64,000 bases of DNA. Origin: an uncultured Clostridia bacterium. Its GTDB lineage: Bacteria > Bacillota > Clostridia > Oscillospirales > Oscillospiraceae. Below the pieces are notes generated by a model. That model worked only from the letters and a program-made list of their open reading frames with translations, was not told the DNA's origin and made no database searches. The DNA lies in contig CAMCNO010000006.1 in the NCBI GenBank assembly GCA_945876285.1, positions 1-64,000 on the forward strand. Direction: 5' to 3'. Position numbers and translations under genes: made by a program. Of this stretch, positions 49,669-64,000 are shown in pieces (within the stretch, counting starts at the first letter, position 1; each line of letters starts with the position of its first letter).

Positions 49669-51609
49669 TTACAGCACCTCGCTCAAGTCGTGGACAGGCG
49701 GCAGACAGCTATGCCCCCGGCACACGTAAAACGTGTTTTTTCCATCCTTGAGGGGAAACTCCGCTGACGGTTCCCACAGCAAAAGTACCGCGTCCGGGGA
49801 GACAACGAGGGGCAGCCGGGCGGCGTCCGACTGCTGCGCAAGAATAGCGGTCACCTTCGGCGGCGGGGACTCATGCTCCAGAAGCGCCAGCAGGAACATG
49901 GCGTACCCGGTGGGATACCGCTCCGCCTCCGGGGCGAGGAAGGCCAGCTGGTGCTCCGCCGTGGCTTCGTAACTGCTGTCGGAGGTGAGCTGGGACAAAC
50001 GCACCAGGTTCCACGCCATCAGGGAATTACCGCTGGGTATCGCCCCGTCGTAGGTCTCCTTCGGGCGCAGGATCAGTGTCTCACTGTCTCCGCCGTACAG
50101 ATAGAAGCCGCCGTTTTCCCGGTCCTAGAACAAGGAGAGCACCGTTTCGCACAGCCCCTCCGCCCGGTCCAGATGCTCCTGTTCCAGCGTTGCCCCGTAC
50201 AGGGAGAGCTGGGCGAAGATACAGGCAGCGTAGTCGTCCAGAAAGCCCCTGACGCCCCGCCGTCCATCACGGAAGCTGACGAACAGCGTGCCGTTTTCCA
50301 TCAGATGTTCCCGGATAAAACTGTCCGCCCGTTTCGCGGCGGTCAGGTAAGCGGTGTTCCCGCTGAGACGGTAGAGCTGGCACATGGCGGCGATCATCAG
50401 ACTGTTCCAGGAGGTCAGGATCTTGTCGTCCAGGTGGAGGGCGCAGCGTGTTTTGCGATACTGTTGAACCCGCTCCATGTCCACGTCGAAGCGCTTGTCC
50501 GCCGGATCGCTGTTCAGAAGATTTGGGATGCTCTTTTCCTCGAAGTTGCCGCCGGGGGTGATGTCAAAATGGCGGCAGAAGGCTTCGCCCTCCTCCAGCC
50601 CCAGAAGAGCGGTGACCTCTCCCGGCGTCAGGAGATAGAATTTGCCCTCCTCGCCGTCGCTGTCGGCGTCCTGGGCGCTGTAAAAGCCTCCCTCCGGGGA
50701 GGTCATCTCCCGCAGGATATAGGCGGCGGTCTTTTCTGCGATCTCCAGATACAGCGTCTTTTTCGTCACAGCGTAGGCCTTGCAGTACGCCAGGATGAGC
50801 AGAGCGTTGTCGTACAGCATTTTCTCGAAGTGGGGGACAAGAAACCGCGCATCCGTGGAGTAGCGGCAGAAGCCATAGCCGATGTGGTCAAACAGACCGC
50901 CCCGGTACATCTGTGTCAGGGTGTGCTCCGCCATTTCCAGGCAGGCAGCGTCCCCGTGCCGCTCATACCAGGCCAGCAGAAACAGGAGGTTGTGGGGCGT
51001 TGGAAATTTCGGCGCACCGCCGAAGCCGCTGTGCTTCCGGTCGTAGGTCTGCCGGTAGAGCGACACGGCGTCCTCCAGAATCACTGTATCCGGCGAACCG
51101 CCGCTCTTTTCGCTGTGATCCAGCTCCGAGACAATTTCCTCCGCCTGGCGCAGCAGCAGCGTCCGGTCCCTCTCCCACTTCTGATGGATGGCTGTCAGCA
51201 GCTCCCGCAGCCCGATCATACCGCCCCGGCTGCTTTTGGGGAAATAGGTCCCGGCGAAAAACGGCTTTTGCTCCGCCGTCATAAAGATGCTGGTGGGCCA
51301 GCCGCCACTTCCGGTAAAGGCCTGACAGACCGCCATATAGATGCTGTCGATGTCCGGACGTTCCTCCTTGTCCACCTTGATGGAGATGAACCAGATGTTC
51401 AAAAGTTCGGCGATCTCCGGGTCCTCAAAGCTCTCATGGGCCATCACATGGCACCAGTGGCAGGTGCTGTACCCGATGCTTAAGAATACGGGCTTGTCCT
51501 CCTCCTTTGCCCGCCGGAACGCCTCAGCGCACCAGGGATACCAATCCACAGGATTTTCCGCGTGCTGGAGCAGGTAGGGACTTGATTCATGCTGCAAATG
51601 GTTGGACAA
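49669..51609 (-). pseudogene. YyaL/DUF255 thioredoxin-domain protein with in-frame amber codon
   Basis: A single frame of 646 codons, interrupted once by TAG at 50127-50125. The N-terminal thioredoxin-like domain has [14 protein letters not shown]. The rest is the (alpha/alpha)6-barrel part ([49 protein letters not shown]), as in bacterial YyaL and eukaryotic SPATA20. At the stop the protein reads LSLF-stop-DRENGGFYLYGG. The family usually has Trp at that site, so TGG to TAG is a one-base change; reading continues intact to the normal end. It is either a recent pseudogene, a sequencing error, or amber read-through. Function of the family is poorly known. Confidence 0.85.
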
Positions 51610-51735: not shown

Positions 51736-53283
51736 TTACGCGAGGTAAGGCGCGGCGACGCGCTCCACGCCATCCGGGTCTGTCTGGCGCCAATCGTCGA
51801 AGCCCTTGCCGCTGGCCGCTACAGTCTGGCCCAGCTCCACCAGGAACGCGGGGATGCGCTCCTCCAGCATCACGCCCAGCTCCCGGCCCATGGTCTCGTG
51901 GCCCTGGCGGTCATCGCCGCCCAGGAAGAAGGTAAAGGCCGCCTGGGGCTTGCCGTCCACCAGCTTGGAAGCGCCCCGGAAGCCCATGGCCCCGGTCTGA
52001 TGGGTGCCGCAGGAGGAGGGGCAGCCGGAGATGTGGATGCAGGGCAGGGCGCCGGCAGGCAGCTTGGCCTCCCGCACCGCCGCCACACACTCTGCCAGCA
52101 GACCCTGGGAGTCCCGGGTACCCACCTGGCAGGTCTGGCCGCCGATGCAGCTGACGGAGGCCTCGAAGGCGGTCTCCGCGCCGCCGGCCGTCAGGGCCAG
52201 CACCTTTTCGGCCTCAACTCCGGTGAGGTTGATGATAAAGGCAGTCTCGTTGGGGCTGAGACGCATTTCGGCCTCGGGAATATTCTCTAAGGCGTCGCTG
52301 AGGGCGCAGAGCATCTTCAGGTTCGGCTGGCCGCCGATGGGATGCCACGCCACGGTGTACAGGCCCTCCTGCTTCTGGGAGATGATGCGGGGGCCGCCCA
52401 CCACCACGCCGTCGCCGGTCTTGGTGACGGGGCGGGGCTCCACGGTCAGGTCCAGGTCCTCGCCGGAGGCCAGCACCTCCGCCAGCTTTTCGTTGTAAGC
52501 TTTGGCATAGCCCTCGGGACCGCCGCAGACGTCCTGCATGTAGCGGGTGCGGGCCTTGCCCCGGTTCTCATAGTTGCCGTAGGCGCGGAAGGTCAGCCAC
52601 ATGGCCTTAATATAGTAGAGAATTTTGCCGGGCTCCACAGCCTCGGCCACCTTCACGCCGAAGCGGGGGTTGTTGCCCAGGCCTCCGGCGCTGTACACGT
52701 CGAATTTCCCGTCAGGCCGGGCGGCGAAGCCCAGGTCCCGGTAGGTGGCGTGGGTCGCGTTGGCGGGAGAGTTGGAGAAGCCTACCTTCAGCTTTCGGGG
52801 CATCTTCTCCGCCTTGATGAAGTGCATCAGGTAGTCCGCCGCGGCCTCCGCCCAGGGCAGCACGTCAAAATACTCGCCCTGCTCCACGCCGGAGAGGGGA
52901 GAGCACATCACGTTCCGGGGAAAGTCTCCGCCGCCGCCCATGGTGACGATGCCCGCGTCCAGGGCCTTCTCCATAATGGCACAGACGGCGCCCTGCTGCA
53001 GGTCGTGGAGCTGGATGGTCTGGCAGGTGGTGAAGTGGGCCCGGGGCACATCGTACTCCCGGATGGCCCTGGCGGTGAACGCCAGCTTCTCCTTCGTCAC
53101 CCGGCCGGCGGTCATCCGCAGACGCAGCATACTGGCCTTTCCGCCCTTCTGGGCGTAGCTGCCGTACAGGCCGGAAAAGCCCTTATAGGCGGCCTTGTCC
53201 AGCTCTCCGGCGTAAAACGCGGCGGTCCGGGCCTGAAATTCCGGCAGGTCCTGCTTCCAGCTCTGAGGGTCGATCTTATGCAT
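51736..53283 (-). CDS. siroheme-containing sulfite/nitrite reductase family protein
   Basis: A 515-residue reductase with the duplicated ferredoxin-like halves of the family. The 4Fe-4S/siroheme ligands are present: CIGGQTC (C-x5-C, near residue 378) and GCPSSCG (C-x3-C, near 418). Substrate-side Arg/Lys residues lie in LRLRMTAGRVTKEKLAF and NVMCSPLSGV. It reduces sulfite to sulfide or nitrite to ammonia; sequence alone does not tell which. I chose ATG 53283, after GGGAGGAAT. It is a single gene. Partner electron carriers or siroheme-synthesis genes are not nearby. Confidence 0.9.
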   Translation of the reverse strand: MHKIDPQSWKQDLPEFQARTAAFYAGELDKAAYKGFSGLYGSYAQKGGKASMLRLRMTAGRVTKEKLAFTARAIREYDVPRAHFTTCQTIQLHDLQQGAVCAIMEKALDAGIVTMGGGGDFPRNVMCSPLSGVEQGEYFDVLPWAEAAADYLMHFIKAEKMPRKLKVGFSNSPANATHATYRDLGFAARPDGKFDVYSAGGLGNNPRFGVKVAEAVEPGKILYYIKAMWLTFRAYGNYENRGKARTRYMQDVCGGPEGYAKAYNEKLAEVLASGEDLDLTVEPRPVTKTGDGVVVGGPRIISQKQEGLYTVAWHPIGGQPNLKMLCALSDALENIPEAEMRLSPNETAFIINLTGVEAEKVLALTAGGAETAFEASVSCIGGQTCQVGTRDSQGLLAECVAAVREAKLPAGALPCIHISGCPSSCGTHQTGAMGFRGASKLVDGKPQAAFTFFLGGDDRQGHETMGRELGVMLEERIPAFLVELGQTVAASGKGFDDWRQTDPDGVERVAAPYLA

Positions 53284-53530
53284 AGTGGATTCCTCCCTGT
53301 TTTCCAACAGTCGATTTTATTCGACGGAATTTTACCACATCTTCACGCCTTTGCGCAACCCGTGCCTGCCAAAATGTGCGGTTTACTTTCGCGTTTCGGC
53401 TTCCAATAAATTTGAAACGCGCCAAAAATCAACCGTTTTCTCACGCTTCGGCCGATATACTTCTGACGTGAACGGCGGGGGGATGCCCCTCCGCCGGGAT
53501 ATCATTCCATGTAAAGGAGAGGCTGAGAAG
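53284..53530. promoter_or_regulatory. divergent regulatory region with three inverted repeats
   Basis: Between the reductase gene and the CotH/SLH gene are GTCGATTTTATTCGAC (53308-53323 area), CGCGTTTC...GAAACGCG (53390-53421, 8-bp arms, 16-base spacer) and a hairpin CGGCGGGGGG/CCCCTCCGCCG (53473-53496) in the leader of the CotH/SLH gene. The second is a plausible operator. No clear -35/-10 pair was identified. Confidence 0.45.
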
Positions 53531-56500
53531 ATGGTTAGGAAAAAGCTGCGAGGGATGCTGGCACTGCTGTTGTCGCTCAGTATGGCCGTGGGCCTGATGG
53601 GCGGCACGGCGCTGGCGGCGGAGGACGAAGAAGATGGAGGGCAACCGGAAACGGCACTTCCCCAGGTCGTGACCTTTGACATCTCCCAGGGTCCCGTGAC
53701 CGCCGGAGCCGACGGTGTGACGGGCGTGCAGACCGGAGCGACGGAGTCGACCACCGTGTCCTGGGAGGACGCGGCGGACCGGGAGCTGGTGGTGACGGGT
53801 ACATCCGATATTACTACCAACGTCATCACTATGGCGGCGGACTGCCCCCAGGACCTGGCGCTGACGCTGGACAATGTGGACATTACATCCGAGGACAAGG
53901 TGGAAAATCCCCGCACCCGGGCGGCCATCAGCATCCAGACCATGGAGGCCAGAACGCTGACCCTGACGCTGGAGGGAGAAAACCGGCTCCATGCCACGGC
54001 GGGCCGCCTGCTGTGGACACAGAACGGCTCCATGATGAAGTTCGTGGGCCAGGATACGGACGGGAGCAAGGCAGCGCTGGAGCTGTCCGATGAGGATACT
54101 CCCATCTCCCTGCTCTTCAGTGGGACAAATGGGTCCGGTATGTTTGAATTCGAGAACTGCGCGGTGACGATGGCGGGCCGTGACCTGGACAACGGGAAAC
54201 AGGTCCTCTCCAAAGGGACGAAGCTCTATTTGGGGGAGAACGCCTCCATCACCGACGGCACGGGCGAGACTGTGGACAGCAACTCTATCAGGGAGGTCGT
54301 CCATGACATCAGCACCGGCGATGTGACCATCGGTAAAGAGGACACCTCTGTCTGCGGCGATGGCTGGCTCATCTTCCTCAATGGCGCGGCTGTCCGGCAT
54401 ATCGTCACCGGGACTTCCACCAGCGGCCGCGTGACGGTCACGTATCCCGAGGCAATGGTGGTGCTGAAGAACCTCACCATCACCACCACGAACCGCAGCG
54501 CGTTTCTGGTGAAATACGCGGACGCCGCCGACATCGGCGAGACGCTGACGGTGCAGGTGGCGGGTAAAGTTAATCTGCAGACCGACGCCGCCTCCACCTT
54601 TAACACCAACGAATCGGAAAAAGGCGCGGCCCTGGTGCCGGTAACGGTGGAGGGCATCGCGGAGGACGCCGAGCTGACCATTACCCGAACCGCGGAGGGC
54701 GACACCGCCGGAAACGCCGCCGTGGGCGTGGACCTGACGGTGAAGGACCTGAAATGCACTATCAGTCGGAACTGCATGGGCGACGTGACGGCTGACGCCG
54801 GCTCCGTGGTGTTCGTGGCCGGAGACATCGGCGGCAACGCCGAGGAGAAAGAGGATGGCCGCCTGATCCGGGGCACCTTCGGATACCGCTTCGTGGTGGA
54901 CGGCCGGGTGTTCAAGACCGTGGCGGACAAATCCAACGGCAATATGCCCACCCTGCTGCTGCCGGGAGACGCGGACCTGAGCCGCGTCACCATGGAAGGC
55001 ACGCCGGACTGGACCGTCACATACGGCGATACGTCGGACAGCAGCGGGAAGGTGGCTCTGGATTTTGCATCCGCAGAAAACAACACCCTCACGCTGACGG
55101 TCACGCCGCCGGAGCAGGCCGTGGCGCTGGGCGCTGTGGAACAGGAGCTGACCCTGCGGGCCATGAAGTCCAGCGAGGATATCCCCTCTCTGTATCTGAG
55201 CATTTCCCCGGACTCCGAAAAGACCATGGCCCAGGTGGAGGCCGATTCCAAACACGACACCAAGGCCACCGGAACGGCGGTGCTGCTGGGGGATAATTCC
55301 CTGCCTGAGATGGAGATGGAGGTCAAGGGCCGGGGCAACGCCAGTTGGGGGCGGGAGAAGAAGGGCTTCCAGGTGAAGCTGGACAAAAAGACCGACGTGA
55401 TGGGCATGGGCAAGGCGAAAAAGTGGGTGCTGCTGCCCAGCGCCGCCGACCTGTCCCTGATCCGCAACTCCGTGGCCCTGGACCTGGCCCAGAAGCTGGA
55501 GCTGGACTACACCAGTGAGTGGCGGTTCGTGGATTTCTATGTGGACGGTGCGTACTACGGCCTCTACATCCTCTGCGAAAAGCCGGAGATCGGCGGCAAC
55601 CGCGTGGAGATCACCAACATGGATGACGCCATCGAGGACGCCATCGGCAAAGAAAACGATGACGGCAGCGACAAGCTGCTGAATGAGGAACCCGGCGTTA
55701 CTTATAACGAGGACCACAGTGCGGCCACCCTGGCGGACGGCACGGTCATCGACCTGACCGGCGGCTATCATCTGGAATTTGACAACTATGACGATGTCCT
55801 CCAGTTCGGTGCCGGGGCCATCAAGCACATCACCGTGAAGGAGCCGGAACGGCTGGGCAGTGATGCGAAAACGGATGAGAGCTTTACCTATATCCGTAAT
55901 TTCATGGCACAGGCGGACGCCGCCGTCACCGATTACAGCAATGACGAGGAACTGCTGAAGTATATCGACCTGGAGTCCTTTGCCAAGATGTGGCTGATTC
56001 AGGAGTATACCTACGGACATGACGCCACGGACAATCTGCACATCTGGAAGGATTCCAACGAGAACGGAGACGGCCTCATCCACGCCGGTCCCGCCTGGGA
56101 CTTCGACAATATCATGGCCCGTGACGAGAACTTTGCAAACGTGGCCACGGTGGCACAGAAGGAGCGCATCACGGACGCCCACGCTGATAAAGAACCGCAG
56201 GACAATCCGTCGGCGGCGGACTACAACGCCAGATGGCTCGCCCAGCTCATGCGCCACAAGGTGTTCCAGGAGGAAGTCACCCGGCAGTATGAGAAGTACA
56301 AGGACCTGTTCACCTGCTGCGAGGGATGCAACTGCGCCTCAGCCAAGAGCTTTGATGACCTGAAGTCCTGCGACAGCTGCGGCGGCTGCTATGTCCACAA
56401 CACGGCGGCCAGCCAGTGGGAGTTTGTCCGGGAGTCCATCGCCATGGACACGGTGCGTTGGTACGATGTCGTATTCAGGGGCCTGAATAGACCTGTTCAG

Positions 56501-58168
56501 CCCCAATACCGGGAACAGTCCGCCCGCAACATTATGCTGTTTGCCTGTGTCCGTAACGGTTATCTGGCGGAGCGCATCGCCAAGTGGGGTGCGGAGCTGT
56601 ATGACGTGACCTTTGTCAGCAACGGCAAGACCGTGAAGACCCTGCGGGCGGGCAGCACCGGGCTTCAGACCCTGCCTGCGGTCACCAGAAGCGGCTATAC
56701 CTTTGACGGCTGGTTCTATACCGTGGACGGTGTGGAAACAGCATTTACTGCCGGAACTTCGGTCACTGAGAACCTGACCGTCACCGCGAAATGGACCCTG
56801 CGCGATGACCTGACCGTCACTGAAAAGCAGAACACGGTGGATAAGGTCTATGACGGCCAGACCGCCGCGCTCTCCGTCACCGCCTCCATCAGCGCTGAGG
56901 GCGCCACCTTTGCTTACCAGTGGTATCGGATGGATGGGGAAACTCCTGTAAAGGTGGAGGGCGCCGACGGCACCTCCCTGGCAGTCGCCAACGCGGCGGA
57001 CAGCGGCACCTACTTCTGCCGGGTGACCGCCGCCGTGGATGGGGTGACCCTCTCCTGTGACAGCGGAGAAATGACTGTCAGCATCCGGCCCAAAACCCTG
57101 GGCGCGGACGCCGTGGCGGACATTCCCGACCAGACCTATACCAGCTCCGCCATCACCCCGGCCCTGACCGTCACCGACGGCGATACCGTCCTGACGGAAG
57201 GCACCGATTATACGGCGGCTTATGCGGATAACGTCAAAACGGGCACCGCCCAAGTGACAGTTACCTTCCAAGGCAACTATACTGGTACTGCTGTCAAGAT
57301 GTTCAATATCGTGAAAAAGAACGGTTCCTCCGGCGGCGGAGGCGGCAGCGGCAATGCCGGGTATTTCATCAAGGACGGAACCGCAAAGGATGCCCATGGC
57401 ACCATCACCATTGCCCCCAGGCAGGCGAAGCAGGGCAAGACCGTCCATATCATTCCCAAGCCCGACAAGGGATATGAGGTGGACACCATCACTGTGCTGG
57501 ACACCAATGGGAAGACACTGGCGGTCACGGAGAAGAACGGACATTTCTCTTTCGTCATGCCCGCCTGCACCGTCACGGTAAAGGCCACCTTCCGGGAGAC
57601 TGGCAAAAAATTCCCCTTCCAGGATGTGAAGCCGGGAGACTGGTTCTACGAGGTGGTGCGCTATGTTTACGAACACGGCCTGATGCAGGGGATCGGTGAC
57701 GCCGCCTTCTGCCCTGGCGGCTTTACCACCCGGGGGATGATCGTCACCATCCTGTGGAACCTGGAGGGCCGTCCCACCGTCGCCGGAAGCATTCCCTTTA
57801 CCGACGTGCCGGAGGATGCGTACTGCGCCCAGGCGGTGAAGTGGGCCGCTGAGAACGGCATCGTGACCGGCTATGAAAACGGAGAATTCCGACCCGGCGA
57901 TCCTGTGAAGCGGGAGCAGATAGCCGCCATCCTGTTCAACTACGCCAAATTCAAGGGCTATGATGTATCGGAACATGAAAACGTCGATTTTTCCAAATTC
58001 AAAGACATTTCTGAGATGAGCGCATACGCGTTTCCCGCCATGCGGTGGTGCGCGGACAACGGCGTCATCAGCGGCAAGGGCGGCGGCATCCTGGATCCCA
58101 GAGGAAAGGCGACCCGGGGCCAGACCGCGAAGATGCTCTACTATTTCTGTGAAAATATCGCCGGCTGA
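53531..58168 (+). CDS. secreted CotH-kinase surface protein with SLH domains
   Basis: A 1545-residue exported protein. Signal peptide MVRKKLRGMLALLLSLSMAV ends near ALAA. A beta-rich carbohydrate-binding-like N-terminal half (to ~540) precedes a CotH kinase domain (~550-1010): VKGRGNASWGREKKGFQVKL, KKWVLLPSAADLSLIRNSVA, RFVDFYVDGAYYGLYILCEK and GPAWDFDNIM. A Cys-rich loop of eight Cys in about 25 residues sits inside it. Then follow an InlB-like repeat (SGYTFDGWFYTVDG), an Ig-like domain, an MBG-like domain, a GSSGGGGGSG linker, a bacterial repeat, and three SLH domains (~1357-1545). The start is 53531, after AAAGGAGAGG. CotH domains phosphorylate proteins; here the kinase would act at the cell surface. 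Confidence 0.9.
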   Translation: MVRKKLRGMLALLLSLSMAVGLMGGTALAAEDEEDGGQPETALPQVVTFDISQGPVTAGADGVTGVQTGATESTTVSWEDAADRELVVTGTSDITTNVITMAADCPQDLALTLDNVDITSEDKVENPRTRAAISIQTMEARTLTLTLEGENRLHATAGRLLWTQNGSMMKFVGQDTDGSKAALELSDEDTPISLLFSGTNGSGMFEFENCAVTMAGRDLDNGKQVLSKGTKLYLGENASITDGTGETVDSNSIREVVHDISTGDVTIGKEDTSVCGDGWLIFLNGAAVRHIVTGTSTSGRVTVTYPEAMVVLKNLTITTTNRSAFLVKYADAADIGETLTVQVAGKVNLQTDAASTFNTNESEKGAALVPVTVEGIAEDAELTITRTAEGDTAGNAAVGVDLTVKDLKCTISRNCMGDVTADAGSVVFVAGDIGGNAEEKEDGRLIRGTFGYRFVVDGRVFKTVADKSNGNMPTLLLPGDADLSRVTMEGTPDWTVTYGDTSDSSGKVALDFASAENNTLTLTVTPPEQAVALGAVEQELTLRAMKSSEDIPSLYLSISPDSEKTMAQVEADSKHDTKATGTAVLLGDNSLPEMEMEVKGRGNASWGREKKGFQVKLDKKTDVMGMGKAKKWVLLPSAADLSLIRNSVALDLAQKLELDYTSEWRFVDFYVDGAYYGLYILCEKPEIGGNRVEITNMDDAIEDAIGKENDDGSDKLLNEEPGVTYNEDHSAATLADGTVIDLTGGYHLEFDNYDDVLQFGAGAIKHITVKEPERLGSDAKTDESFTYIRNFMAQADAAVTDYSNDEELLKYIDLESFAKMWLIQEYTYGHDATDNLHIWKDSNENGDGLIHAGPAWDFDNIMARDENFANVATVAQKERITDAHADKEPQDNPSAADYNARWLAQLMRHKVFQEEVTRQYEKYKDLFTCCEGCNCASAKSFDDLKSCDSCGGCYVHNTAASQWEFVRESIAMDTVRWYDVVFRGLNRPVQPQYREQSARNIMLFACVRNGYLAERIAKWGAELYDVTFVSNGKTVKTLRAGSTGLQTLPAVTRSGYTFDGWFYTVDGVETAFTAGTSVTENLTVTAKWTLRDDLTVTEKQNTVDKVYDGQTAALSVTASISAEGATFAYQWYRMDGETPVKVEGADGTSLAVANAADSGTYFCRVTAAVDGVTLSCDSGEMTVSIRPKTLGADAVADIPDQTYTSSAITPALTVTDGDTVLTEGTDYTAAYADNVKTGTAQVTVTFQGNYTGTAVKMFNIVKKNGSSGGGGGSGNAGYFIKDGTAKDAHGTITIAPRQAKQGKTVHIIPKPDKGYEVDTITVLDTNGKTLAVTEKNGHFSFVMPACTVTVKATFRETGKKFPFQDVKPGDWFYEVVRYVYEHGLMQGIGDAAFCPGGFTTRGMIVTILWNLEGRPTVAGSIPFTDVPEDAYCAQAVKWAAENGIVTGYENGEFRPGDPVKREQIAAILFNYAKFKGYDVSEHENVDFSKFKDISEMSAYAFPAMRWCADNGVISGKGGGILDPRGKATRGQTAKMLYYFCENIAG

Positions 58169-58180
58169 CATGGCTCGACA

Positions 58181-58219
58181 AAGCCCAGGCGGACCACAAA
58201 GGTCCGCCCGGGCTTTTCC
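58181..58219. terminator. bidirectional terminator
   Basis: AAGCCC-A-GGCGGACC pairs with GGTCCGCC-C-GGGCTT around ACAAA, followed by TTTTCC on the plus strand. It lies between the CotH/SLH gene and the convergent DUF4832 gene. Confidence 0.82.
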
Positions 58220-58285
58220 TTGATCTGGAAATGCCAATTACCATACCCGGCCGCAAAATGGAAGCGGGAAAACGTTTCAGCACGC

Positions 58286-59668
58286 TTATTTTTGCGAATA
58301 GGAGTAGATGATCTGGCTGTCATCCACGATCTCCCTGTTTATATCCATTGCCAGCATGACGCTGTCCTTTCCGTCGTAGCTCCTGATGGAGATACCCACC
58401 GACAGACCATCCCGGATCTCATCCAGATACGGGACCTTGGTCACGGTCGTGATGGTTTTGCCGGGGGCGAGCTGGGATAGCTTCAGGTCCAGGGTCTCCC
58501 AGTAGACCAGGGTGCCGCTGTGGTCAAAAATCTTGATCATGACGGGCCAGTCCCAGTACAGCGGCGCGCTGCCGTCATTTTCCCAGTCCAGCCGGATGTC
58601 GATGGAATCGTCGGCAAAGGAAAACGTCGTTGAGAGCCTGGACACATAGTACTTGTATCCCACCCGCCGCAGGATGGAGTCGTAGGCGTTCGTATCCACG
58701 TCAGGGATGTGGGGCCCGACAAAGGTCAGGTGACAGTCCTCCAGCTGCCGGAGCAGGGAGGAGAGGTCTTCGTTATACAGACGGCTCTCGTCGATGCCGC
58801 TGGTGATCTCGCCGCCCGCCGGCGCGGTTTCCCAGAAGTTCGGATATGGCTGAATTTCAATTTCATCCACGGAGGTGGCCTGGCTGCCGCCGGATCTTGT
58901 CCACTCCAGCCATCTGTCCGTCTGCGCCTGGTCGCCCAGCACATCGTTGTAGATGCCCAGCCTGGCGTCCACCGCGTAGATGTAGCTTCTGCGCATCAGG
59001 AACCGCACGTTTTGGAAGTGCTCCGTGTAGGCGAGGATGTAGTCCCAGCAGGTCTCGGACGAGGGCATCAGGGAATTGCCGTCGTTGTCCCGGGCGTGCC
59101 ACTCGCCCCAGTGGCCCAGACTTCCCAGCTCCACATAGGCCGCAAAGTCATCCTGATTGAAGTAATCGGCTAGTGCGGTGACAGCCATGGTATGACGGGA
59201 ACGGAAAAACTCGTTTTCGTAGTTCGGGGAATACCCACTTCCGCTGCTCCCGGAATAGTAGGTGCCGTCTCCGGTGGACTCCAGCAGCCATCCGGGGATG
59301 TCCGCGCCGCCGTCCGTGTCCGGGTCGTCGCAGACGAAGCGGATGACGGCGTGTTTTCCCTGGGCCTTCCACTGGGGGATGTGGAATTTGGATTCCAGGA
59401 AGGCGGTGTCATACTGCCCCATCTCCGGCTCCCAGTCCGACCATTTCAGCTTGATAAAAACCAGGTCGGTGTCCTGGCATTTGTCCACATTTTCCGCGTA
59501 GGGCGCGTAGCCCATCAGCGGATTTGCCACAATGCCCTTGTCCGGCTCGAAGGTCACCTCGTCGTTCAGGTGGTAGCGGCCCAGCATATAGGCGAGGAGG
59601 CCGACGATGGCGGTGGTCAGCAGGAACAGGAGGATGTAGTCAGCCACCCGGCTTTTCTTCTCAGCCAT
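58286..59668 (-). CDS. DUF4832 (DUF4874-like) membrane-anchored protein
   Basis: A 460-residue protein. One N-terminal membrane helix (YILLFLLTTAIVGLLAYMLG) is followed by an extracellular TIM-barrel-like region that resembles glycoside hydrolases (GIVANPLMGYAPYAENVD, KLKWSDWEPEMGQYD, VELGSLGHWGEWHARD). A C-terminal beta-sandwich (FADDSIDIRLDWENDGSAPL) matches the DUF4832 domain. It may bind or process a cell-surface glycan. Last gene of the CotH operon, overlapping DUF4956 by 8 bases. No substrate is known. Confidence 0.82.
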   Translation of the reverse strand: MAEKKSRVADYILLFLLTTAIVGLLAYMLGRYHLNDEVTFEPDKGIVANPLMGYAPYAENVDKCQDTDLVFIKLKWSDWEPEMGQYDTAFLESKFHIPQWKAQGKHAVIRFVCDDPDTDGGADIPGWLLESTGDGTYYSGSSGSGYSPNYENEFFRSRHTMAVTALADYFNQDDFAAYVELGSLGHWGEWHARDNDGNSLMPSSETCWDYILAYTEHFQNVRFLMRRSYIYAVDARLGIYNDVLGDQAQTDRWLEWTRSGGSQATSVDEIEIQPYPNFWETAPAGGEITSGIDESRLYNEDLSSLLRQLEDCHLTFVGPHIPDVDTNAYDSILRRVGYKYYVSRLSTTFSFADDSIDIRLDWENDGSAPLYWDWPVMIKIFDHSGTLVYWETLDLKLSQLAPGKTITTVTKVPYLDEIRDGLSVGISIRSYDGKDSVMLAMDINREIVDDSQIIYSYSQK

Positions 59669-60344
59669 TGTATTCTCCGTTGTATTGGATGAGGTTGATG
59701 TCCTTGACGCCCTCGATCTCCCTGATCTTATCCATGAAGGTGGTGCCGTTCTTGTCGCAGATCAGCTCCAGCGTCAGCTCGCAGGCGGAGCCGCGCATGG
59801 TCTTGCTCTTGACCTGATAGCGGTAGCGGCTCAGACAGCGGAGGATCTCGTCATCCGCCGTGTCGCCCTCATAGTGAACGACCAGGATGTAGATGACCCC
59901 GCTCTTCCGCTTGTGGTAGAAGAGGTAGACGATGAAAATCATCACGATCATGGTCAGGGCGGCCAGGACATAAAGCCCCGCGGCCAGCGTGATGCCCACG
60001 GAGATGGACCAGAACAGATACAGAAGGTCCATGGGGTCCTTGATGGCTGTGCGGTAGCGGACGATGGAGAGAGCGCCCACCATGCCCAGGGAGATCACAA
60101 TGTTGCTGCTGATGGCAAGGGTCAGCATACAGGTCAGCACGGTCATGCCGATCAGCGTGACACCGAAGGAAGCGGAGTACACAACGCCGCCGTAGTAGTG
60201 GCCGTATACCTTATAGATCACAATGCCCAGCAGCACGGCGGCGGTCATGGCGACGATGGCTGTGATGACGAAATCCAGGGTGATGCCGCCGCTGGCGGCA
60301 AAGGAATCCCATACTGTTTTCTTAAAATAATCCCGAATAGACAT
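59661..60344 (-). CDS. DUF4956 membrane protein
   Basis: A 227-residue protein with three to four membrane helices (DFVITAIVAMTAAVLLGIVI; LIGMTVLTCMLTLAI; GITLAAGLYVLAALTMIVMI) and a cytoplasmic C-terminal ferredoxin-like domain (CELTLELICDKNGTTFMDKI). The motif LGMVGALSIVRYRTAIKDP is the family signature. DUF4956 is repeatedly found next to VTC polyphosphate polymerase genes; an export or anchoring role for the polymer is a reasonable guess, not shown here. It overlaps the VTC gene by 23 bases. Confidence 0.87.
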   Translation of the reverse strand: MSIRDYFKKTVWDSFAASGGITLDFVITAIVAMTAAVLLGIVIYKVYGHYYGGVVYSASFGVTLIGMTVLTCMLTLAISSNIVISLGMVGALSIVRYRTAIKDPMDLLYLFWSISVGITLAAGLYVLAALTMIVMIFIVYLFYHKRKSGVIYILVVHYEGDTADDEILRCLSRYRYQVKSKTMRGSACELTLELICDKNGTTFMDKIREIEGVKDINLIQYNGEYNG

Positions 60345-61095
60345 TTCTTGATCTCCTCCCGCTCATGAATGTTTTGGATACTCCGGCCGTAAGATCGGTC
60401 AGATGGTGGGCTGCCTCATAACACATGGCATACTTGGAAAACGCGGAAAATTCCTGGCCGTCCAGCGGCAGGAGCGTTTTGACCACCTGGGGCAGAAAGG
60501 CGGTGTACTTGACCTCCAGGACCAGCTTGCCCGGCTCAATGGCCGGGAGCGTGGGAAGCTCCGCGTCGAAGATGTCGAAGGAGCCGATAGCGGCCCGGAC
60601 GCTTTTGTCAAAAGTGATGCGGACGGTGCCCGCGTCCATGATCATCGGTGTTCTTTCGTAGTCCACCACTACCTTCGGGCGGAGGAGCTTCACCATGCAC
60701 TCGTAGTAGAACTCTTTGCAGAGGTTTTCCTCCCTGGTCAGAAGGAACGGATAGTCCCCGTCCAGGATTCTCTGAAACTCCTCTCTGGTGAGTGCGGCGG
60801 ATTCCTTGTAGATGTAGCTGCCGCGTTTGGTTTTCCGCTCCAGACTGATGCGCTGGTCGCTGCAATTATAGATCCTGATGCGCCACTTCTGACGGAAATC
60901 CACGCCCATGATCTTTTCCCGGTAAGCGGAGTCGTGCATATCGTCGAAGTAGAGGCTTCGGATCATGTACGCTCCGTCCGCCGCGTTCCGGTCAAGGGAC
61001 AAAAACGGGCTCAGGCGCCGCTGAAGCAGCTCTGCTTCCGGGTAGGAGATGAGATATTTCCACTCATGGCGGAAGACTTTCTTTTTTTCACACAT
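60322..61095 (-). CDS. VTC-domain polyphosphate polymerase
   Basis: A 257-residue protein of the VTC fold (triphosphate-tunnel family), which makes polyphosphate from ATP in eukaryotic vacuoles. Basic and acidic tunnel residues are visible: FRHEWKYLIS, MIRSLYFDD, KWRIRIYN, SLERKTKRG, VVVDYERTPM, RITFDKSVRA and LVLEVKYTAFLP. The start at 61095 follows GAAGGTGA. The CotH gene stops 2 bases before. With DUF4956 it may form a membrane-associated polymerase. Whether the bacterial enzyme makes polyphosphate here is inference from the family. Confidence 0.87.
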   Translation of the reverse strand: MCEKKKVFRHEWKYLISYPEAELLQRRLSPFLSLDRNAADGAYMIRSLYFDDMHDSAYREKIMGVDFRQKWRIRIYNCSDQRISLERKTKRGSYIYKESAALTREEFQRILDGDYPFLLTREENLCKEFYYECMVKLLRPKVVVDYERTPMIMDAGTVRITFDKSVRAAIGSFDIFDAELPTLPAIEPGKLVLEVKYTAFLPQVVKTLLPLDGQEFSAFSKYAMCYEAAHHLTDLTAGVSKTFMSGRRSRNVYSGLF

Positions 61096-61096
61096 C

Positions 61097-62860
61097 TCAT
61101 TCACCTTCGTTGAAGTAGGAGGCATGGACACTGCCGTCAGGCATCACGTAAAAGCAGAGCGTGCCGTAAACGGTTGTCTTGACCTCGGTGGGATAGGTCT
61201 CATAGGCGATCTGGCTCTTTCCGTCGTCGGTCTGTGCCGTGACGGAGAGGAAATACTGCCCGACAGGGAGCCGGTCGATGATCCATTCCGTGGATTTGCA
61301 GCCGGAATCGCTGAACAGGGGCGTCTCAAAATCCCAGGAGTCATCCAGAATGATGCTATAGGTGACGGCTTTATCCCGGGCAGCGTCCTCCCAGGAGAGA
61401 CGGAGAGTGCCGTCCGCCTGTGTTTCCGGCTCGCGGATATGGAAGGGAGCGGGAAGCTCCAGACTCTCATAATAGGCGTAATAGTTCCTCACGATCTGCT
61501 CATGGATGCCTGCCGCAAGGGCGTCGTACTGGGCCGGGGTCACCCGGGCAAAGGTCTTATCCGGCAGGCTGAATACGTATTCTTCCGCCAGCCCGGTAAG
61601 CCTGGATACGGCGGAGGAAACAACAGGCTCGGTCAGATATGTCTCATACAGAGTATCTACCGCCGTGCTGAGGCCGGAGATGCAGGCATCGTCCTCCAGG
61701 ATTCTGGCGAACAGGACGTTATCGTAAAAACTGAAGATGCCGGTGTCCCAGGCAGCCGACTGGCCCGGGCCCCGCAGTTCCTCATAATCCGCGCGGAAGG
61801 CGCCGTCGTTGTCCCAGGAGATGAAGTAAAACTTCTCGGAGCCGGTGGGGCTGTACAGATAATAGTTCTCTGTGGAGGTGCCCTTGTTGCCGGTCAGGAT
61901 ATTGAAGGCAAGCCAGTGATAGAGGTTGTCTCTGTCAAAATAGGTGTCGAGGACCTCCTGAATGGAGAGGTTGGGATCGTTGACGGCCTTGAGCATTGCC
62001 AGCAGCTTGGCATGGTCGTCGCTGCCTTTGCTCTCCAGCAGCGCTTCGAATGCGTCCTTCTGGAATTGGGAGGAGGTGGACAGGGTGATGACATCCTCGT
62101 GGCGGGCAAAATCGAAAGCATTAGCTTTGTAGAGCGCGCCGTCATCGTCCAGATGGCGGCTTTTCAAATAGGACTTGTTGATGGGCTCCACCATGGTGTA
62201 CAGGCCGTAATCCTGGTAAAGCGTATCCGCACCGGAGGTAGTGTCTTTCACATAGAGGTGGACCAGCCGCGTCCGTGTGCTCAGAAGAGATGGGATATCC
62301 TCCATCAGCTCATAGCACAGCTTGTTCGTGATGCGGAGCGGGTCGGCAAAGCTCTTTGACAGGACCACGGTCTTCATTCCGTCCAGGGAGCCCTTGCCGT
62401 CCTTGATGGAAATGCGATAGCTCTTTTGCTGCCGCTTGGAGGCGTTTGCTCCCTGTAGCCGGACGACAGCGTTGGCGGTCAGCGCTCTGTATCCGAAAGC
62501 GCCCTCGGTGGGCGCGTTTTCATCGCCCATCTGGAACACGGCCTCGCATTGATACGGAATCGTTCCCTGTTCCTCCAGGGGAATGGAGTTGATCTCCGTC
62601 CAGGTGTGGTCGGTGCCGTCGGCCTCGTTGCCCAGGCCCACCGCCAGATAAACGACGGCAATGCCGTCTTCTGTTTCCGCATACAGGTCGTTGGCGTCGG
62701 AGACAAGAATGGCGGCAGCATCGGTTTTCTCATAGGTCTCCTCCGGCGTCAGGATGCTGTTGAGGACGTTCTCTCCCTGAAAGCCGCACCCGGCCAGCAG
62801 CAGGCAGAGCAGCACCGGCAGCATGCACCGGTACCTGGCAAAATGGGTTTTCGTTCTCAT
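61097..62860 (-). CDS. CotH-kinase family lipoprotein
   Basis: A 587-residue lipoprotein: lipobox LLLAGCGF, then a CotH kinase domain (RLQGANASKRQQKSYRISI, TRTRLVHLYVKD, DYGLYTMVEPINKSYLKSRH, FYFISWDNDGAFRADYEELR). A C-terminal fibronectin-like or beta-sandwich region (SVTAQTDDGKSQIAYETYP) follows. CotH proteins are atypical protein kinases; the Asp in SWDNDGAF is the likely metal ligand. It begins one codon boundary after the stop of the upstream CotH gene and is co-transcribed with VTC, DUF4956 and DUF4832. Confidence 0.9.
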   Translation of the reverse strand: MRTKTHFARYRCMLPVLLCLLLAGCGFQGENVLNSILTPEETYEKTDAAAILVSDANDLYAETEDGIAVVYLAVGLGNEADGTDHTWTEINSIPLEEQGTIPYQCEAVFQMGDENAPTEGAFGYRALTANAVVRLQGANASKRQQKSYRISIKDGKGSLDGMKTVVLSKSFADPLRITNKLCYELMEDIPSLLSTRTRLVHLYVKDTTSGADTLYQDYGLYTMVEPINKSYLKSRHLDDDGALYKANAFDFARHEDVITLSTSSQFQKDAFEALLESKGSDDHAKLLAMLKAVNDPNLSIQEVLDTYFDRDNLYHWLAFNILTGNKGTSTENYYLYSPTGSEKFYFISWDNDGAFRADYEELRGPGQSAAWDTGIFSFYDNVLFARILEDDACISGLSTAVDTLYETYLTEPVVSSAVSRLTGLAEEYVFSLPDKTFARVTPAQYDALAAGIHEQIVRNYYAYYESLELPAPFHIREPETQADGTLRLSWEDAARDKAVTYSIILDDSWDFETPLFSDSGCKSTEWIIDRLPVGQYFLSVTAQTDDGKSQIAYETYPTEVKTTVYGTLCFYVMPDGSVHASYFNEGE

Positions 62861-64000
62861 TTACACATCCTCCCCTGCATAGACGGAAATGGTCCCATCC
62901 AGTGCTACCGTAAAGACGTAGCAGCCATAGATCTTTCCAACGTTTGCAATGCTGTAATAGTCAAAGCAGTCAGTGGTGTGGCCGGACTCATTGGTGGCCG
63001 TGACCTTCAGATAATAGGTGCCCGGCTCCAGAAGTCCCACCCTGGCATAAGGGATCGTCAGATCGGAACCAGTAGACAGGATATGCCGGAACTGGTAGTC
63101 AGTGGCCAACTGATAATCGTAGGTCACGGATTCGCCCCGGAGATCATAAGCGGTGCCCCAGGAGAAAAAGATGCTGTCCTCGTGGGATTCCGGGGTGTTG
63201 ACAAAGAACGGCCACGGGCATGCCAGACTGTCCAGATAATATTCATAGTTGATCTGTATCTCGGATGAGAGCATATCGACGTATCTGTCGTACTCCTTTG
63301 GTGTCAGCTGGCTGTTGTAATTGCTGAACGCATTGTTGAAAATGTCATATTTGACCACCTTGCTGTATGCGGCGGCGCGTTCCGAAATTTTATCGGGGCT
63401 CAGCGCGTGCTCCATCAGGTCGTGAATGGCATCCTCCAACTGCTTGCGGTAACATTCTTCCTTCATCATCCGCTGGAAAAGTACCAGAGAGACATATTGG
63501 GTCAGACCGTGTTCCCAGGAAAGACCTTCCAGGTATCCGATTTTCTGAAAGTAATTTCTTCGGAAGGAGGCGTCCATGTCCCAGGAGATGAAGTACCACT
63601 TCTGAGAGTTCAGCGGACTGTAAATGTATGCGTTTCTGGGACCGGAGTCGTAGTTGCCGATAAGAATTTGAAAGGCCATCCAGTAGCACAGGTTCTCCGC
63701 GTCAAAATCGTTTTCGATGATCTCTGTGATGGGGATGCTGTAATTCTGCAGTCTGGTCAGTGTGTCCCGCAGATTGGCGTGGTCATCGCTGCCCTTGATC
63801 TCCAGATAAGATTCAAACGCGTCCTCGTCGTAGTCGTCTCCGATTGCCATGATCTCGTCGTAGTCATACCATTCAAACATATTGACCTTATACAGCTCAC
63901 CGCGTTCATCCAGGCCGTGGTTCTTCAGGTAGGTCCGGTTGATCTGCTCCACCATGGTGTAAAGACCGTAGTCCACATAGTTCCCGGAACCGCCCGCTGT
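62861..64000 (-). CDS. CotH-kinase family protein (partial, 5' end beyond window)
   Basis: The C-terminal 380 codons of a second CotH kinase in the operon: YVDYGLYTMVEQINRTYLKN, GSDDHANLRDTLTRLQNYS, AFQILIGNYDSGPRNAYIYS and SWDMDASFRRNYFQKIG. The stop TAA directly precedes the ATG of the next gene. The two CotH proteins are clearly paralogous across their whole shared length, so the pair is a tandem duplication that has diverged. The true start lies past base 64000; the ORF-track start at 63976 is an internal GTG. Confidence 0.9.
   Translation of the reverse strand, partial: TAGGSGNYVDYGLYTMVEQINRTYLKNHGLDERGELYKVNMFEWYDYDEIMAIGDDYDEDAFESYLEIKGSDDHANLRDTLTRLQNYSIPITEIIENDFDAENLCYWMAFQILIGNYDSGPRNAYIYSPLNSQKWYFISWDMDASFRRNYFQKIGYLEGLSWEHGLTQYVSLVLFQRMMKEECYRKQLEDAIHDLMEHALSPDKISERAAAYSKVVKYDIFNNAFSNYNSQLTPKEYDRYVDMLSSEIQINYEYYLDSLACPWPFFVNTPESHEDSIFFSWGTAYDLRGESVTYDYQLATDYQFRHILSTGSDLTIPYARVGLLEPGTYYLKVTATNESGHTTDCFDYYSIANVGKIYGCYVFTVALDGTISVYAGEDV

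Follow-up and report, generated by a model that had tools for sequence, protein, structure and literature searches.

The five minus-strand genes at the end of a 64,000-nucleotide stretch from an uncultured Clostridia bacterium of the Oscillospiraceae (GenBank assembly GCA_945876285.1, contig CAMCNO010000006.1, positions 1 to 64,000 of the forward strand; hereafter the window) encode two tandem CotH-family proteins, a VTC-domain protein, a DUF4956 membrane protein and a DUF4832 protein. Because pel genes lie directly upstream, we read the locus, on sequence grounds, as the accessory part at the end of a Gram-positive Pel exopolysaccharide cluster. Searches across the phylum demonstrate that VTC, DUF4956 and CotH are a self-contained unit that also occurs without Pel. 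The best explanation of the locus, which we put forward tentatively, is a Pel accessory tail containing such a unit, which would feed polyphosphate to the CotH kinase.

The operon and its Pel genes

All six genes named in an earlier reading of this DNA, made without database searches (the sequence-only reading), are present, and each is borne out by Pfam. Five of them make up the minus-strand group:

62861..64000, minus strand, cut by the window: CotH1, a predicted lipoprotein CotH kinase (Pfam CotH 2e-57 on the complete gene)
61097..62860, minus strand: CotH2, a lipoprotein CotH-family protein (Pfam CotH 8e-55, lipobox)
60322..61095, minus strand: VTC-domain protein, predicted polyphosphate polymerase (Pfam VTC 1e-37)
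59661..60344, minus strand: DUF4956 membrane protein with transmembrane helices and a cytoplasmic ACT-like domain, possibly MgtC-like in layout (Pfam 6e-11)
58286..59668, minus strand: DUF4832 protein with an N-terminal membrane anchor, a putative TIM-barrel-like domain and DUF4832 (Pfam DUF4832 8e-13)

These genes are tightly packed, with overlaps of 8 bp between DUF4832 and DUF4956 and of 23 bp between DUF4956 and VTC, and with CotH1 and CotH2 abutting (...GTG TAA ATG...), in agreement with the single tight operon proposed before. The VTC gene start was set at the ATG at 61095; an alternative GTG at 61131 is possible. The window edge falls inside CotH1, whose complete gene occupies contig positions 62861-64624 (L001:4862-6625, where L001 is a stretch of the contig running beyond the window; the contig extends to 83 kb). 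The operon reaches at least 10 kb further upstream past this edge, its genes closely spaced and all on one strand, in the order HD-GYP, pelD-like, pelE-like, pelADA, pelF, pelG, cotH1, cotH2, VTC, DUF4956, DUF4832.

The homologues of pelG, pelF and pelADA are contiguous on one strand and match Pfam strongly (PelG PF16933 2e-120, PelF DUF3492 4e-80, PelADA DUF2194 5e-146). A further match of PelADA is the solved structure 9zau (7e-69), in our reading the B. cereus PelADA described in PMC13254593. A pelD-like gene has the fitting place and size, an SDR/epimerase-like N-terminus and a transmembrane part; its Pfam matches are weak, and a PDB search with the C-terminal half of its product found no relatives. 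The pelE-like gene fits in place and size as well, with no match in the Pfam scan. An HD-GYP gene (L001:14801-16153) was observed directly upstream of the pelD-like gene (L001:12452-14788), and an RNND (RxxD) motif near the end of the product of the latter was spotted by eye only. Together these features suggest that control by cyclic di-GMP may be retained here, unlike in streptococci.

Contiguity of cotH, a poly-phosphate polymerase gene, DUF4956 and DUF4832 with pelDEADAFG has been described in streptococci and clostridia, and the accessory set was tied to PelDs bearing an extra epimerase domain (Whitfield et al. 2020, PMC7112168). The window shares with that cluster the gene set and strand, the contiguity and a PelD-like protein with an SDR/epimerase-like N-terminus, while it differs in having two tandem lipoprotein CotHs (the second degenerate), HD-GYP before the pelD-like gene and the RNND motif seen by eye in its product. 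The locus adds another example, with CotH doubled, to the published architecture; the sequence-only reading had overlooked that earlier papers describe the set as accessory to Pel (PMC7112168, PMC12345266). The same four families, DUF4832 (a hydrolase there), DUF4956, polyphosphate polymerase and CotH, lie beside Pel as SIR_1591-1594 in S. intermedius, where CotH is single. In that organism the four extra genes are dispensable for Pel, deletion of DUF4956 gave more Pel and deletion of cotH less, and either deletion, in one medium, cut aggregation to less than half (mBio 2025, PMC12345266).

VTC, DUF4956 and CotH form a unit that also occurs without Pel

VTC was searched in 99 relatives and in 250 genomes spread across the phylum; DUF4956, CotH and PelG were then searched in 80 VTC genomes, and 98 VTC loci were tabulated by position. 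DUF4956 is present in all 80 genomes and lies on the same strand within 2.5 kb at 95 of the 98 loci, and CotH lies on the same strand within 4 kb at 53, which excludes chance as the source of the clustering. Most of these 53 CotH-linked loci have no PelG within 12 kb (49), and for 44 the whole genome lacks PelG. Inspection of the DNA at about 60 loci revealed tight operons, mostly VTC-DUF4956-CotH, with a median boundary of 4 bp in 80 triads. The gene order is shuffled, yet adjacency is kept (VTC-DUF-CotH, CotH-VTC-DUF, DUF-CotH-VTC and CotH-DUF-VTC). No single frame matching both families, that is, no VTC-DUF4956 or VTC-CotH fusion, was found in the loci searched.

This is further supported by a separate scan of named genomes, which used a narrower VTC alignment and whose 80 VTC loci are biased to one VTC clade: DUF4956 is present at 79 of them, CotH at 37 and Pel nearby at none. 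The complete chromosome of Clostridium cadaveris carries the triad and lacks PelG, and C. senegalense, R. papyrosolvens and others likewise have the triad and no PelG. By control searches, C. glutamicum appears to carry genes of all three families as well. VTC, DUF4956 and CotH are a self-contained unit in these genomes, and the CotH/poly-phosphate polymerase/DUF4956 arrangement is common outside Pel, contrary to the 2025 report, whose authors state that they did not find any (PMC12345266).

The same authors suggest Pel-specific accessory genes, with CotH regulating Pel synthesis by phosphorylation and VTC/DUF4956 tuning phosphate metabolism. While this account agrees with the placement of the genes beside pelDEADAFG in streptococci and clostridia, and with the shifted Pel levels of the DUF4956 and CotH mutants, the 49 CotH-linked loci away from PelG, the 44 in PelG-free genomes, the lack of Pel near all 80 named loci and the C. 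cadaveris triad make it quite unlikely.

In the phylum sample, 32 of the 36 CotH genomes have VTC, compared to 39 of 250 overall, and CotH or the secreted Cthe_2159 family (see below) is found in 39/39 VTC genomes versus 8/211 without VTC (Fisher P = 3e-29 for CotH and 4e-38 for either partner, relatedness ignored). With 19 families represented, the gene set is conserved well beyond close strains, a point on which the sequence-only reading had made its proposal depend. Pel and exopolysaccharide (EPS) loci are often mobile, and two copies of the unit are plasmid-borne, as accidental or hitchhiking neighbours in a polysaccharide island might be. However, adjacency and co-occurrence lie far above chance in 19 families and adjacency persists despite the shuffled order, so that the positional and co-occurrence counts already contradict this possibility and render it highly improbable. 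In the VTC tree, the large clade that holds the Pel-linked VTCs consists mostly of VTCs linked to CotH. On the simplest reading, Pel operons took up a unit that already existed, although tree support around the Pel branches is not strong.

Two further observations concern the surroundings of the triad. It is often flanked by a gene pair for a histidine kinase and a response regulator of OmpR type (L065, L052, L080 and others), and at one locus a Na+/phosphate cotransporter with a PhoU domain follows it directly (L033:4958-6826).

Cthe_2159 as an alternative partner and other polysaccharide settings

Among the named loci 42 lack CotH, and 32 of these share a homologous gene directly after DUF4956; the seven scanned members of this group are Cthe_2159 (PF14262; for example at L099, L102, L108, L111 and L168). 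Cthe_2159 is secreted, folds as a beta-helix and binds cellulose as well as polygalacturonate; of the fungi compared, only anaerobic rumen fungi have the Cthe_2159 and CotH families (PMC6712302). At the 98 tabulated loci the VTC-adjacent partner is CotH in 53 cases, Cthe_2159 in 26 and both in one; as neighbours, each all but excludes the other. The VTC tree requires at least seven (CotH) and at least five (Cthe_2159) partner changes on well-supported branches. As far as the searchable literature shows, this free-standing, partner-swapping unit is undescribed.

Two annotated plasmids carry the unit in other polysaccharide settings, namely the EPS cluster of P. xylanivorans pNP95 and a glycosyltransferase-HEAT (GT-HEAT) cluster of Planococcus. 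A six-gene cluster, in the order VTC, DUF4956, CotH, an unknown protein of 700 aa, HEAT and glycosyltransferase, was found at L070, L073, L045 and L175 and also on the Planococcus plasmid, whose cluster is a gene-for-gene match to the one at three loci. Its layout resembles NELoc-2 of C. perfringens (PMC2879425), which likewise has genes for VTC, CotH, HEAT-repeat and glycosyltransferase proteins, lacks Pel and differs in its polysaccharide synthase context; we found no assay of the NELoc-2 genes.

These findings could also be explained by a structural polyanion: polyphosphate made by VTC and then exported would cross-link other polymers of the surface as well as Pel, which is cationic and partly deacetylated, with CotH or Cthe_2159 binding or capping it and no donor role necessary. 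Such a role would suit a third slot occupied by either a polygalacturonate-binding beta-helix or CotH, and a unit that lies in several polysaccharide loci (Pel, the pNP95 EPS cluster and the Planococcus GT-HEAT cluster resembling NELoc-2). We nevertheless regard it as unlikely, given that CotH1-type proteins nearly always keep both catalytic aspartates, which are needless for binding alone, and that the S. intermedius VTC deletion left aggregation unchanged.

The VTC, DUF4956 and DUF4832 proteins

The VTC domain scores 130 bits against a Pfam cut-off of 23, covering positions 1-234 of 235, and the VTC profile matches the yeast Vtc4 structure 3g3q (E=4e-17). Residues aligning with Vtc4 K200, R264, R266, K281, K294, R361 and R373 are kept in the VTC protein, and the equivalents of K200, R264, R266, K281, K294 and R361 are invariant across 22 diverse bacterial VTCs. 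Most of the aligned Vtc4 residues line the Vtc4 tunnel. Of the tunnel Lys/Arg/Glu residues to which the sequence-only reading had pointed, the Lys/Arg listed above are conserved; the automatic alignment, which covers the N-terminal three quarters or so, does not map the C-terminal Glu/Lys onto Vtc4. The VTC fold is a member of the triphosphate tunnel superfamily.

With the yeast VTC complex the locus shares the VTC domain with its tunnel residues and the pairing of a catalytic protein with a membrane protein. In contrast to yeast, these are separate small proteins here, the membrane partner is DUF4956 with an ACT domain instead of the eukaryotic VTC membrane domain, and an SPX domain was not found in the bacterial counterpart. 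PPK1 was not found in the organism's own genome. A general role of VTC as a replacement for PPK1 was considered and is unsupported, as 11 of the 39 VTC genomes also carry PPK1.

The AlphaFold2 (AF2) model of DUF4956 (pLDDT 88) comprises transmembrane helices followed by the ACT domain. Foldseek returned ACT domains as top matches, including the MgtC C-terminal domain 2lqj, all of them weak (E ~5e-3), and a sequence search of the PDB gave no match. An MgtC-like layout of DUF4956 has been described (PMC12345266). This layout, the weak 2lqj match, the place of the VTC fold in the triphosphate tunnel superfamily and the response regulator/histidine kinase pairs that often flank the triads would be consistent with a cytoplasmic sensor or regulator, in which VTC acts as a triphosphate-binding or triphosphatase module, DUF4956 controls ATP synthase or ion flux, and no polyphosphate is made. 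We consider this rather unlikely, since the Vtc4 tunnel residues are conserved and a purely cytoplasmic role leaves the near-perfect genomic coupling to secreted proteins unexplained.

The DUF4832 protein carries the DUF4832 domain and an N-terminal anchor, and a PDB sequence search found no relatives. SIR_1591, the DUF4832 protein of S. intermedius, is an active glycoside hydrolase (PMC12345266), and by homology the protein in the window is a predicted surface Pel hydrolase, a point that the sequence-only reading missed.

CotH1 and CotH2 differ in their active sites

CotH1 keeps both catalytic aspartates (NYD and WDMD), the equivalents of B. subtilis D228 and D251, whose loss kills B. subtilis CotH (PMC7821199), and the CotH profile matches 5jd9 (8e-96). 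In CotH2 the D228-equivalent aspartate is lost, with NKG in the window and NKN in the relative G007, and is still present as NKD in the relative G029. CotH2 is probably impaired or inactive. Its decay appears to be recent or ongoing, because the aspartate is lost in the window and in G007 and kept in G029. As the D228-equivalent is absent, we count CotH2 as CotH-like and not as a kinase; it is possibly a pseudokinase beside the kinase CotH1.

A signal peptide with a lipobox is present in both tandem CotHs, where at least one lipoprotein had been expected. By a simple N-terminal hydrophobicity rule (not SignalP), 46 of 47 VTC-linked CotHs have an N-terminal hydrophobic signal or anchor, nine of them with a lipobox, compared to 0/4 for spore-type CotHs (~370 aa, away from VTC) and 1/57 for the VTC protein control. 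CotH1 shares the kinase fold and catalytic aspartates with the spore CotH of B. subtilis/B. cereus (5jd9). While the latter is a spore coat protein without a VTC-DUF4956 link, CotH1 is a secreted lipoprotein linked to VTC-DUF4956. A fourth CotH domain was observed in the organism's own genome at C23:6526-7647, within a 2877-residue open frame.

The SLH-anchored CotH giant is a neighbour of the operon

Two features adjoin the operon at its downstream end:

53537..58168, plus strand: SLH-anchored CotH giant (Pfam CotH 1e-29 and three SLH repeats)
58180..58217, no strand assigned: strong hairpin with T/A tails, probable bidirectional terminator (fold z=-3.45)

The giant had been placed in the cluster by the sequence-only reading; we reject it as part of the system. 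It is convergent to the operon and ends at the strong hairpin followed by T's, for which 0 of 200 shuffles were equally stable. In G029 its homologue is on a different contig from the Pel operon, with other downstream DNA, and in G007 it is absent from the equivalent place beside the Pel operon. The giant is therefore a neighbour and not an operon member, being convergent, separated by a terminator and not conserved beside Pel. Part of its N-terminal region (54389-54613) gave a Cthe_2159 match below threshold (E 9e-4), with a poor AF2 model (pLDDT 44), and a comparison of the giant's N-terminus with Pfam gave no match. On the minus strand, the letters alone suggest a YyaL/DUF255 thioredoxin-domain protein at window positions 50125-51609 and, at 51736-53307, a nitrite/sulfite reductase of ferredoxin type.

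Discussion

In the explanation that we tentatively favour, a polyphosphate-feeding unit within a Pel accessory tail, we infer that the cytoplasmic VTC enzyme would make polyphosphate from ATP and that DUF4956 would pass it outward, in the role that the transmembrane domains have in yeast VTC. CotH, secreted and lipid-anchored, would use the polyphosphate, directly or via ADP, to phosphorylate surface proteins or polymer, and this phosphorylation would tune Pel retention and aggregation. The DUF4832 hydrolase would trim Pel, and the degenerate CotH2 may act as a non-catalytic partner of CotH1. The sequence-only reading had proposed that a polyphosphate or phosphorylated surface polymer is made and exported. 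The exported polymer here would instead be Pel, a known polysaccharide of GalNAc/GalN, while the idea of a coupling between polyphosphate and CotH survives both tests set for it, namely conservation beyond close strains and the tunnel residues.

A broader proposal, possible but doubtful, is that VTC-DUF4956 is a synthase-translocase whose exported polyphosphate powers secreted CotH and partners Cthe_2159 in a second class of loci, Pel having borrowed the unit. The favoured reading, in which the secreted partner would use or bind the exported polyphosphate, offers a single explanation for two facts: VTC almost never occurs without DUF4956, and genomes bearing the pair always have a known secreted partner family, usually adjacent. 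Exported polyphosphate would also solve the missing-ATP problem of CotH, whose ATP source has been termed an unanswered question even in spores (PMC7821199).

Several points weigh against a polyphosphate-fed kinase. PPK1 accompanies VTC in the 11 genomes noted above, and in G166, a genome that is 93% complete, a secreted lipoprotein CotH is present (L176:3195-4592) and no VTC was found. The partner at 26 of the 98 VTC loci, Cthe_2159, is carbohydrate-binding and not a kinase; the shared role may therefore be other than phosphorylation. Purified spore CotH uses ATP (PMC7821199); polyphosphate is a proposed donor. In S. intermedius, no aggregation phenotype was reported for loss of SIR_1593, the VTC homologue, and Pel moved in opposite directions on deletion of DUF4956 and of CotH (PMC12345266). 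For a bacterial VTC-DUF4956 pair we found neither a structure nor an assay, and for these proteins no polyphosphate or phosphoprotein measurements. The silent VTC deletion and the Cthe_2159 class in particular argue for caution.

A kinase outside the cell has to draw on a phosphate donor in a place with little ATP, and where that of CotH comes from has been called unanswered (PMC7821199). The export of polyphosphate to a secreted kinase would, if true, provide a general answer to this phosphate supply, give the eukaryotic VTC complex a bacterial counterpart and assign DUF4956 a function. The published view of the trio as Pel-bound would then need correction, and the question would become testable in laboratory organisms without Pel.

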